A stretch of 39,481 bases of DNA, taken from NCBI GenBank assembly GCA_030024085.1, contig JASEJE010000029.1:1-39481 (forward strand), written 5' to 3'. Both the position numbers and the translations under genes were made by a program. The notes under the pieces were generated by a model. The model was not told the DNA's origin. It was given only the letters and a program-made list of their open reading frames with translations, and made no database searches. The DNA comes from Bacillota bacterium. Lineage in GTDB: Bacteria > Bacillota > SHA-98 > UBA4971. Positions 1 to 39,481 of this stretch are shown here, piece by piece; position 1 is the first letter of the stretch, and each line of letters starts with the position of its first letter.

Positions 1-56
1 CCCTGGCGACGACCTGCGCGCTGAAAAGTAGCGCGAATTTGTGGCGATCTACTTAC
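1..56 (-). repeat. Interspersed palindromic repeat, copy D (cut by window start)
   Basis: Read on the minus strand, this stretch begins TAAGTA, then GATCGCCAC, then AAATTCGCGC, then TACTTTTCAGCG. It closely matches the left end of the complete copy at 34246-34457, with only a few substitutions over the first 35-40 bases. The outer end lies near base 56, so the element runs leftwards out of the window. It sits about 70 bp upstream of the RNase G start codon. Identification rests on direct comparison of copies within the window. Confidence 0.8.
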
Positions 57-2712: not shown

Positions 2713-2815
2713 CTCCTAAGTGCGGGTTCAGAAATCGCCGCCACTTGTTCGGGGGTTGTCGGTGTTGCCCTCCGAGGACGGCGTGCTTGCGGCGTGCTCC
2801 CGGAGTCTTCGGGTG
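2713..2815 (+). repeat. Interspersed palindromic repeat, copy E (left half only)
   Basis: The sequence starts CCTAAGTGCGG, passes through GCCGCCACTTG and reaches TTGTCGGTGTTGCC then CTCCGAGGACGGCG. It aligns nearly base for base with the left part of copy A at 33957. The CACCGGCAAC arm present in the right half of complete copies is missing, so the copy is truncated or diverged after about 2815. It lies immediately downstream of the rpmA stop codon. Confidence 0.75.
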
Positions 2816-5977: not shown

Positions 5978-6053
5978 GGGGACGTAGCTCAGTTGGGAGA
6001 GCGCGTGAATGGCATTCACGAGGTCGTGGGTTCGATTCCCATCGTCTCCACCA
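5978..6053 (+). tRNA. tRNA-Ala (anticodon GGC)
   Basis: A 76-nt cloverleaf with the CCA end encoded. The acceptor stem GGGGACG pairs with CGTCTCC and contains the G3-U70 wobble that is the identity element for alanyl-tRNA synthetase. The D arm is GCTC/GAGC. The anticodon stem CGTGA/TCACG encloses the loop ATGGCAT with anticodon GGC. The T arm GTGGG-TTCGATT-CCCAT is standard. A T6 run follows directly after CCA. Confidence 0.97.
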
Positions 6054-32160: not shown

Positions 32161-32334
32161 CGCCGGGTATGGGGTTGGAGGCTTTCGCTGCGCGCTGCGA
32201 GCGCGCCGGCCCCGGGGTGCAACGATGGTAGCCTGGAAGCTTCCGCCAGGCTCGCGTGATATGTGAACCAGCACTTGACTGTGGCTTTTCCGGGCGGCAC
32301 TGGGCTGCCAGAAAACAACCGGGAGGTAATGGAA

Positions 32335-33348
32335 ATGGGAGCGGCTTACGCGTTTCTGGTCCTGCCTGTCTTCATCATCGTCGGTCTACTCATCCTGCTG
32401 AACTTCGTGCCGGTGGGTCTCTGGATATCCGCGTGGGCGGCCGGGGTGCACGTGGGCATCTTCACCCTGGTAGGGATGCGCCTGCGCCGGGTTCCGCCGG
32501 GGCGGATCATCCTGCCGCTCATCAAGGCGGTGAAGGCCGGCCTTCAGGTGAGCGTGGACAAGCTGGAGGCGCACTTCCTTGCCGGGGGCAACGTCGACCG
32601 TGTCGTTGATGCGCTCATCGCGGCCCAGCGAGCGGAGATCAACCTGTCCTTCGAGCGAGGCTGCGCCATAGACCTTGCGGGCAGGAACGTCCTCGAGGCC
32701 GTCCAGATGAGCGTGAACCCCAAGGTCATCGAGACGCCCGTGGTGGCCGCGGTCGCAAAGGACGGCATCGAGCTCAAGGCCAAGGCCCGGGTGACGGTGC
32801 GGGCCAACATCGACAGGCTCGTCGGCGGCGCGGGCGAGGCCACCATCATCGCGAGGGTTGGCGAGGGCGTGGTGACAACCGTGGGCTCGGCCGAGAGCCA
32901 CAAGGAGGTGCTGGAGAACCCCGACAAGATCTCCCGCACCGTGCTGAGCAAGGGCCTCGACGCGGGCACCGCCTTCGAGATCCTCTCCATCGACATAGCC
33001 GACGTGGACGTCGGAAGGAACATCGGTGCTCAGCTCCAGATGGACCAGGCGGAGGCCGACAAGAACATCGCCCAGGCAAAGGCGGCCGAGCGGAGGTTCG
33101 CGGCGCTCGCGCGCGAACAGGAGATGAAAGCGCAGGTCCAGGAGATGCGCGCGCGCGTGGTTCAGGCGGAGGCCGAGGTGCCGAGGGCCCTTGCCGACGC
33201 GCTCCGTTCAGGGAAGCTGGGCGTGCTCGACTACTACCAGTTACAGAATGTGCTGGCCGACACGCGCATGAGGCAGTCCATAGCGGGCGTCGGCGAACCG
33301 CGGGAACCCGTCGATGCGTCGCCCACGGAAGAAGAGAAGAAGAAGTGA
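32335..33348 (+). CDS. floA: Flotillin-like protein FloA
   Basis: Membrane scaffold of bacterial lipid microdomains, 337 residues. The N-terminus is a hydrophobic membrane-inserting region (about 4-50: [22 protein letters not shown]). The body is an SPFH-like domain ([60 protein letters not shown]). Next is a helical coiled-coil stretch rich in Ala/Glu/Gln ([20 protein letters not shown]), then the conserved [27 protein letters not shown] at 32335 has GGGAGGT 7 nt upstream and is preferred over the ATG at 32329 that touches this site. It forms an operon with nfeD. Confidence 0.95.
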
Positions 33349-33355
33349 TGCTCTG

Positions 33356-33961
33356 ATGGATGCCCTCTTCGGGCTTCTGTTTCTGCTCTATATGGCTGCC
33401 GTGGTCATAGCGGCCGTGTCGAAGGGACGCCAGGGGAAGACCAGGGGTGCGGGTGCCCCCTGGCCCAGGGTACCGCCGCTGCAGGCGCCGGGGACCGGCG
33501 CCGGCGTGCCGGAGGGCCCCGCGGTCGGTCCTGTGACGCCCACGGCCCAGCAGGATGTCCGCATCGAGCCGGACCGCGCGCTTGAACCCGGGCCGGAACC
33601 CGGAACCGCCGGAGGTCCCGTCGCAGCGTACCCGGGACATCGACGGCCGGCTGAGACGGGAAGAGGGCGCGATGCACGTCGCCCGATGTCGGAGGAGTGG
33701 CTGTCGGAAGAAGGTCTCAGCCTGGAATGGGCCGAGGCCGGGGCGTGGACGGGCGAGGGACCGCGCCGCTGGCCCGCGTCTTCCCGCCGCCGTGCCGTCG
33801 CGTCGCCGGAGGGTCGTGAGGGGCGGCGGCGCGACCTGCCGCGGGCACGAGACGCAGCGGAACTCATCGGTGATTTCAACCAGGCAGATCTCATGCGCGC
33901 AGTGGTCCTGGCTGAGGTGCTGGGCCCTCCCCGTGCCCTCAGACGTAGTATAAGGCTCTAA
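33356..33961 (+). CDS. Uncharacterised membrane-anchored protein with LGPPRAL tail
   Basis: A 201-residue protein beginning 7 nt after floA. It has one N-terminal transmembrane helix (about 3-22: ALFGLLFLLYMAAVVIAAV), a long Pro/Gly/Arg-rich disordered middle and a short conserved-looking C-terminal helix (DFNQADLMRAVVLAEVLGPPRALR). Similar EVLGPPRAL-type tails occur in uncharacterised proteins of other Clostridia. The function is unknown; being next to nfeD-floA suggests the membrane microdomain. Its TAA stop lies inside repeat copy A, so the repeat may have replaced the original C-terminus. The ribosome site is weak. Confidence 0.7.
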   Translation: MDALFGLLFLLYMAAVVIAAVSKGRQGKTRGAGAPWPRVPPLQAPGTGAGVPEGPAVGPVTPTAQQDVRIEPDRALEPGPEPGTAGGPVAAYPGHRRPAETGRGRDARRPMSEEWLSEEGLSLEWAEAGAWTGEGPRRWPASSRRRAVASPEGREGRRRDLPRARDAAELIGDFNQADLMRAVVLAEVLGPPRALRRSIRL

Positions 33962-34178
33962 GTGCGGATTCAGAGATCACCGCCACTTTGCCAGGCGTTG
34001 CCGGTGTTGCACTCCGAGGACTGCGCGCTTGCGGTACGCCTCGTTGGATTTGGCGTTCAGGGTTGCCAAATCGGAAGCGCCCCGTCGTGCAAGCACCGGC
34101 AACCCGGAAGCCTCTCCCAAACCGGCATGGACTTGTGAACTCACAGTTGGCGATTGTCTTCAAAACCTGCACCCAGAG
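33957..34178 (+). repeat. Interspersed palindromic repeat, copy A
   Basis: An element of about 220 bp with no coding potential. The left end TCTAAGTGCGG and following 35 bases align with copy E. Inside are two nested perfect inverted repeats: GTTGCCGGTG (33997-34006) with CACCGGCAAC (34094-34103), and GATTTGGC (34047-34054) with GCCAAATC (34065-34072). The right end, near TTGGCGATTGTCTTC, is a degenerate inverse of the left end, so the right boundary is approximate. Its first bases supply the stop codon of the preceding gene. Confidence 0.8.
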
Positions 34179-34245: not shown

Positions 34246-34457
34246 CCTAAGTAGATGGCCACAAGTTCGCGCTACTTTTCAGCGGGTGAGTCCTGTCCAG
34301 GGTTGCCGGTGTTGCCCTCCGGGGACGGCGCGTGCGGTGAGATGCGTTCGAATTTGGCGCGCGGGCTAGCCAAATTCCAGGCGCCCCGCCCTAGCAAGCA
34401 CCGGCAACCCCAACACCGTCAGGGAAGATGGCGCGAACTTATGGCGCCATACTTAGG
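34246..34457 (+). repeat. Interspersed palindromic repeat, complete copy B (MITE-like)
   Basis: A 212-bp element with 27-bp imperfect terminal inverted repeats, CCTAAGTA then nine bases then AAGTTCGCGC at the left and its inverse at the right (GCGCGAACTT, nine bases, TACTTAGG); the arms match at 22 of 27 positions. Nested inside are a perfect 12-bp inverted repeat GGGTTGCCGGTG (34300-34311) / CACCGGCAACCC (34399-34410) and a 9-bp one GAATTTGGC (34350-34358) / GCCAAATTC (34369-34377). There is no transposase. The inverted ends suggest a non-autonomous mobile element; the nested stems would also fold as RNA. With copy A it fills most of the 678 bp between the LGPPRAL gene and yqfC. Confidence 0.9.
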
Positions 34458-34639
34458 AGCAACTTGCCCTGCCTGCAAGAATACACTTGAGTAGTGCGAT
34501 AGTGCTAGCCGGGGCGGTTTCCGCGGTCGGGCGCGCCCGGGCACGCCTCGCACCGGTGGTGCGGGCAGGCCCGGCGGATGCCGCGGATAGCCTGGCTGGA
34601 AAGGCCGGAGGCGCGGTGCACGCTGACGACAGGGACGGC

Positions 34640-34909
34640 ATGACTGGCCGCATGGAAGAAAGGCTCGCCGACGTTTTTGAGATTCCGAAGAACGTCCTCC
34701 TCGACATGCCGAGGCTCGTCCTCGTCGGCAACGTGCAACTCGTCGTCGAGAACCACCAGGGCATTCTCGAGTACAGGCAACAGATAGTCAGGCTGGCGAC
34801 GTCCAGAGGCGAGATCGCAGTGGAAGGAAAGGGCCTGTCGATTGCCAGGATCACGAGAGCCGAAGTGGCCATCGAGGGGCACATACAGCGCATCTCACTC
34901 TCAGGATGA
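34640..34909 (+). CDS. yqfC: Sporulation protein YqfC
   Basis: Small sporulation protein of the YabP/YqfC family, 89 residues. The core ERLADVFEIPKNVLLDMPRLVLVGNVQLVVENHQGILEY followed by GEIAVEGKGLSIARITRAEVAIEGHIQRI matches the family throughout. ATG at 34640 was chosen because the family begins just before ERLAD and AGGGA lies upstream; the frame is open to 34487 but without similarity. In Bacillus yqfC and yqfD are transcribed by the mother-cell factor sigma-E. I see only a weak candidate promoter in the 180 bp after the repeat. Confidence 0.9.
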   Translation: MTGRMEERLADVFEIPKNVLLDMPRLVLVGNVQLVVENHQGILEYRQQIVRLATSRGEIAVEGKGLSIARITRAEVAIEGHIQRISLSG

Positions 34910-39397: not shown

Positions 39398-39481
39398 TCT
39401 AGGTAGATGGCCACAAGTTCGCGCTCCTTTTCAGCGGGTGAGTCCTGTCCAGGGTTGCCGGTGTTGCACTCCGGGGACGGC
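39398..39481 (+). repeat. Interspersed palindromic repeat, copy C (cut by window end)
   Basis: From TCTAGGTAGATGGCC onward the sequence matches the first 84 bases of complete copy B with only about four substitutions, including the AAGTTCGCGC end motif and the inner GGTTGCCGGTG arm. It lies 32 bp after the pgpH stop in the same orientation as copy B and is interrupted by the end of the window. Confidence 0.9.

Follow-up and report, generated by a model that had tools for sequence, protein, structure and literature searches.

Among described systems, RUP (repeat unit of pneumococcus) resembles the element analysed here in being small and free of open reading frames, in having about 100 or more intergenic copies and TA at its ends, and in having inverted ends like those of an IS630 element; RUP has been proposed to be mobilised by IS630-Spn1 (PMC2229807, PMC3049150). 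RUP of Streptococcus pneumoniae is set apart by its description as a 107-bp, AT-rich sequence (PMC3049150), whereas the present element is about 210 bp long and GC-rich, with a CTAG target resolved by empty sites, a covarying three-way core shared among its copies, several end subfamilies and a number of landings in stop codons. IS630 of Shigella sonnei transposes to the TA of 5'-CTAG-3', going by the title of Tenzen and Ohtsubo (1991) as cited in PMC2170065, and ISY100, a member of the same family, duplicates TA (PMC2170065). The apparent TA duplication and, as far as that title describes IS630, the CTAG preference are thus features our element has in common with them, although both are autonomous and encode a transposase while it carries no gene. 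Correia/NEMIS and ERIC, which differ from it in host and size, are likewise palindromic and MITE-like with TA termini (PMC2229807). REP/REPIN units with their RAYT are also high-copy intergenic palindromes, but most of the genomes heavily loaded with our element lack a Y1 transposase, its CTAG target is symmetrical and its TA duplication pattern is different. For ERIC and NEMIS, RNA-level or IHF roles have been reported, whereas the pair changes described below argue against an RNA role in the present case.

The window, meaning the whole analysed stretch of 39,481 nucleotides, contains one complete copy of the type that we call type I (copy B) and four other copies or parts of copies. The features are as follows.

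34247..34456, plus strand: copy B, complete type I element with target, made up of C, TA (34248-34249), the element proper (34250-34453), TA (34454-34455) and G; from sequence, an alignment of 30 copies and empty CTAG sites at other loci
34247..34280, plus strand: left terminal inverted repeat of copy B, CTAAGTAGATGGCCACAAGTTCGCGCTACTTTTC; from the 30-copy alignment, and like the IS630-family ends of the class
34423..34456, minus strand: right terminal inverted repeat of copy B, CTAAGTATGGCGCCATAAGTTCGCGCCATCTTCC reading inward; from sequence
34301..34409, plus strand: conserved core palindrome, a three-way junction modelled as R1; covariance model match of 86.9 bits, pair counts
34301..34315, plus strand: 5' arm of stem P1, GGTTGCCGGTG TTGC; folding, pair counts
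34394-34409: 3' arm of stem P1, GCAA, one bulged base, CACCGGCAACC
34320..34324, plus strand: 5' arm of stem P2, CGGGG, with the 3' arm CCCCG at 34384-34388
34326..34347, plus strand: stem P3 region, a divergent variant in copy B; folding, pair counts
34350..34377, plus strand: stem-loop P4, GAATTTGGC (34350-34358) with GCCAAATTC (34369-34377)
33958..34150, plus strand: copy A, of a related subfamily, left end CTAAGTGCGG...CCACTTTGCCAGG; core covariance model, 102.8 bits, and comparison of the left end with an IS630 end
2716..2798, plus strand: copy C, left part of an element of the copy A type
1..55, minus strand: copy D, type I left end cut by the contig end
39399..39481, plus strand: copy E, type I copy of which the contig end leaves the left 83 bp

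The neighbours of copy B are floA (32263-33348) and a yabP/yqfC-like gene (34487-34909). The preliminary description had placed it at 34246-34457, which is one flanking base too many on each side of the exact 210-bp limits, CTAAG...CTTAG; the imperfect inverted ends that it noted are real, with 25 of the first 34 positions equal between left and right, and the left repeat is also self-folding (AAGTAG...CTACTT). The nested perfect inverted repeats of 12 bp (34300-34311/34399-34410) and 9 bp (34350-34358/34369-34377) are present as described, and the four further copies listed there (A, C, D and E) are all genuine. Copy A is complete, with a core at 33996-34104 and a degenerate right end (...CACAGTTGG). 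The contig starts and stops inside copies D and E (1-55 and 39399-39481), and the repeat therefore breaks the assembly. Elsewhere in the window a tRNA-Ala (GGC) occupies 5978-6053, where an Rfam tmRNA model also matches below threshold.

The repeat is much more widespread than the window shows. When the parent genome G000 (3.11 Mb, 65 contigs) was searched with copy B, copy B itself came back at E 1e-107 and the next copy at 1e-98; there were 378 first-look candidates and 40 scored near-complete copies of 90-100% identity, and the end pattern, allowing up to two mismatches, occurred 229 times against none for the reversed control. Repetition of copy B in this genome is far beyond chance. A census by iterated profiles over 1.19 Mb of G000 (38% of the genome) found 176 copies or pieces covering 2.5% of bases, a density that extrapolates to roughly 460 copies per genome. 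At least three subfamilies can be distinguished: 101 of the 176 belong to type I, 63 to profile III and 12 to profile II. These profile names are operational, and profile III mixes two kinds of element, with ends CTAAGTGTGGG (the kind of copy A) and CTAAGTGAGGG. In two places (C62:97525-97612 and C22:40303-40375 of G000) the core has been deleted and the ends are joined, leaving about 73-88 bp.

By the covariance model, the core is present in 14 of 17 genomes of the class. Within the parent's genus, G000 to G004 have about 40 to 150 matches each and G005 has 3; another genus of the same family has 0-11, and one genus of a second family has 26-101, with the high counts being lower bounds, as 150 candidates were scored per genome. 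Among 398 genomes of the phylum, matches fell only in members of the class (12 genomes), and none of the 383 genomes sampled from the phylum outside the class had the element; the plasmids and phages searched gave no match either. Chance explains the pattern matches in Nocardia, Erwinia, viral contigs and others, where the core model gives no match. The repeats form an IS630-type MITE family, with an unusually clear target, in one class of uncultured Bacillota. The earlier statement that no named family matches holds for the databases searched, Rfam among them, but the kind of element, of which RUP is an example, is already known.

We considered the target site in 88 near-complete copies. A majority of them end in C-TA-AG...CT-TA-G, with scattered transitions, and the bases beyond are unbiased, so any target duplication reaches no further. 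Orthologous empty sites were found in three genomes: GGGGCTAGG in G002, opposite copy C22:152181; GGCTAGCTAG in G003, opposite a copy on C93 of G004; and CCACTAGACC in G004, opposite a copy on C95 of G003. These fit an insertion into CTAG in which TA would be duplicated, giving C-TA-[AG...CT]-TA-G, a pattern that in sequence alone looks the same as insertion at CT^AG without duplication; sites reading CCAG fit either. The P4 loop of copy B contains a CTAG (34366-34369), and at C55:93997-94216 a type III right end adjoins the CTAG in the P4 loop of a type I copy, as if nested. CTAG is 6.5-fold under-represented in the 1.19 Mb of G000 (616 seen versus about 4,006 expected from base composition); 145 of the 616 words lie inside elements, and 233 noncoding words are left outside them, as compared with 176 copies.

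The preliminary description had proposed a MITE mobilised in trans, and the terminal repeats, target, empty sites and IS630 ends all agree with this. Related ends (CTAAGT...) with the same flanks occur on IS630-family elements or relics of the class. In G015, from another family of the class, a 1,143-bp IS630-family element with a broken transposase reading frame has C-TA on one side and TA-G on the other, and further copies in G015 and G016 have the same limits. The left end of the 1,143-bp element has GCCACTTTGCCAGGC in common with copy A; when CTAAGTTAGTGTCCAATTAAATTTGCCACTTTGCCAGGC of G015 is set against CTAAGTGCGGATTCAGAGATCACCGCCACTTTGCCAGGC of copy A, the last 15 bases are identical in register. 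Decayed IS630 pieces occur within the parent's genus in G001, G004 and G005, and two deletion derivatives among these relics have ends like those of type I: CTAAGTCGAGCGCCATAAGT (G005; shuffle p 0.0015) and CTAAGTAAGAGCGCATAAGT (G004; shuffle p <0.0005) resemble CTAAGTATGGCGCCATAAGT, the right end of type I. The IS ends and the element ends are alike rather than identical, agreeing at 16-17 of 30 inner positions. A scan of the IS630 loci at a strict cut-off for TA-flanked inverted repeats gave nothing useful; the ends were recognised through CTAAGT and then confirmed by multi-copy alignment. Since related ends and the same flanks belong to IS630 elements and relics, mobilisation in trans, as judged from ends and target, appears well supported.

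The search for a transposase with the same ends succeeded in part, in that IS630 elements and relics with related ends exist, but no intact transposase with the element's ends was found in G000 or the class relatives examined. Neither a DDE_3 domain nor the transposase domain of G015 had a match in G000. We also looked for an autonomous element with these ends in the examined G000 DNA and found none; the more widely spaced pairs of ends proved to be neighbouring MITEs. We infer that the mobiliser would have been an IS630 element that has decayed in G000 or disappeared from it.

The copies are overwhelmingly intergenic (170 of 176, versus 11% of random positions), with gene context here and below taken from a simple purpose-made gene caller rather than published annotation. 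Thirty-six of the 176 provide the stop codon, mostly TAA, of a called neighbouring gene. At C22:143829 the gene ends CCC-TAA with the element, while without it the ends are CTC-TGA in G003 and CTG-TAG in G002; at C55:108593 the end with the element is NPN-TAA and the homologous end in G002 is KPN-TGA. The stop codon of this C55 gene (about 108590-108593) holds a type I copy in G000, its homologue in G003 and G004 holds a copy with a type III end (CTAAGTGAGGG), and thus different elements used one homologous site. Stop codons account for much the same proportion of landings (36/176) as of noncoding CTAG words (39/233; p 0.37), and no special preference for stop codons is needed because CTAG is so rare and landings in coding sequence are removed. 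Stop-codon landing is a neutral by-product of the CTAG target. The copies prefer neither convergent nor divergent spacers, and their distance to the upstream stop (median 52 bp) is shorter than that to the downstream start (median 147 bp, p 1e-4). In the 1.19 Mb, copies between genes of the same direction show an orientation skew, 75 being antisense to the flanking genes and 46 sense (binomial p about 0.01).

A 110-bp core is common to all subfamilies and consists of stem P1 (15 bp, one base bulged), stem P2 and the hairpins P3 and P4. P3 is GGCGCGC/GCGCGCC or GCGCCCC/GGGGCGC in most relatives, and P4 is replaced in type III by CAAAATCCGGCC/GGCCGGATTTTG; between subfamilies both hairpins are swapped as whole units and remain paired. 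P1 is conserved in sequence, too, from one family of the class to another. The full element folds better than shuffled sequences (z -5.8). The core of copy B alone folds modestly (z -1.7), and those of its relatives much better (z -5 to -8). The covariance model gave 128 core matches in the DNA examined, some of the weakest being the same places on the opposite strand. In the alignment of these matches 95% of cells pair, 27 of 36 pairs vary on both sides, and 238 cells are compensated as against 75±13 when shuffled and at most 98 when slid, all counted in an alignment fitted to the model, which favours pairing counts (A3, unedited genomic matches aligned to the model, whose seed A2 has row 6 one base short). 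The earlier remark that the inner stems are kept while their sequences differ is borne out. RNAalifold on a mixed alignment recovered mainly P1 and part of P2, because MAFFT had set the P3 and P4 arms of different subfamilies out of register; building the model from well-aligned members corrected this.

Our preferred reading, to which we assign a probability of roughly 85%, is that a transposase of the IS630/Tc1-mariner type, acting in trans, moves this non-autonomous transposon (MITE) into the TA of CTAG sites, and that its palindromic core is kept at the DNA level. After recognising the inverted ends of about 30 bp (AGTA...), such an enzyme would excise the element and integrate it at a CTAG with duplication of TA. 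Since the bases that follow the duplicated TA are the element's own AG, a C-TAG stop that is hit would become C-TAA, still in frame, whichever way round the element lies, making stop codons harmless landing sites. The element spread to its present numbers in G000, where the transposase would now be decayed or lost. The core would be kept in propagating copies as residents drift, the intact palindromes most likely helping in transposition or maintenance.

The stable folds and the strong covariation might also be expected of a structured RNA or 3'-UTR device kept locus by locus, whose transcript folds and affects mRNA ends, a role that has been proposed for ERIC or BOX; the closeness to upstream stops and the 75:46 orientation skew would agree with it as well. 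The type of mismatch, however, argues otherwise. A palindrome constrained only as DNA should show G·T and A·C mismatches equally, while an RNA stem favours G·T on the transcribed strand, as RNA pairing should tolerate G·T only. The core has 74 G·T and 77 A·C mismatches (p 0.87), and within type I the ratios are 33:34 in P1 and 19:24 in P4. Moreover, the paired columns of 69 type I copies contain 692 one-sided changes versus 47 compensated ones; this makes the residents look neutral and places the matching changes in lineages that were spreading. Equal G·T and A·C together with decay of one arm at a time indicates DNA-level constraint on propagating copies rather than an RNA working at each locus. 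Convergent and divergent spacers are not preferred, the closeness to stops follows in part from landing in stop codons, and Rfam cmscan of the window at E<=1 gave nothing on the element. We thus rejected an RNA role as the main reading, on the mismatch balance and the mostly one-sided resident changes, and regard it as improbable; of the preliminary suggestion of a structured RNA or a protein-binding site, only the latter may stand, at the DNA level.

The same balance of mismatches, and the presence of compensation in all stems, would also result if the element were a MITE whose core arms were matched by DNA-level correction (template switching or hairpin-guided repair) instead of selection. 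We infer either DNA-level constraint in propagating copies or arm-to-arm correction of this kind, but correction in place cannot be frequent with so few compensated changes in residents, and alone it would not give a P1 sequence conserved across families of the class, so we consider it unlikely as the whole explanation. A more specific form of the DNA-level reading makes the core an active DNA-hairpin or cruciform signal that the element needs in order to propagate and to which the transposase, the replication machinery or a host protein would bind, its design kept while IS630-type ends were swapped or diverged around it; this is a tentative and rather unlikely idea. REP/REPIN-like units moved by a Y1 (HUH) single-strand transposase (RAYT) would account for the terminal hairpins and the absence of a long duplication, since both ends can form hairpins with AAGTAG/AAGTAT feet and the core is a bulged hairpin. 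This explanation is largely refuted and very improbable, as Y1_Tnp is absent from the copy-rich G000, G001, G003 and G004 in a search that does find it in E. coli and other controls, the palindromic CTAG is conserved on both sides, unlike a Y1 target, and the related ends belong to IS630 elements.

If the core were such a propagation signal, the MITE would be modular, its amplification module being separate and selected for structure. Comparing G·T with A·C mismatches tells whether a covarying repeat is constrained as DNA or as RNA, which is important wherever palindromic repeats are taken for RNA structures. For the uncultured Bacillota, the analysis adds a large and well-resolved bacterial MITE family, with its target, empty sites, IS ends, subfamilies and host range, the copies of which break assemblies. 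It also illustrates how an element that targets CTAG can fill its host genome cheaply, by landing in noncoding CTAG words and in stop codons, where C-TAG becomes C-TAA.
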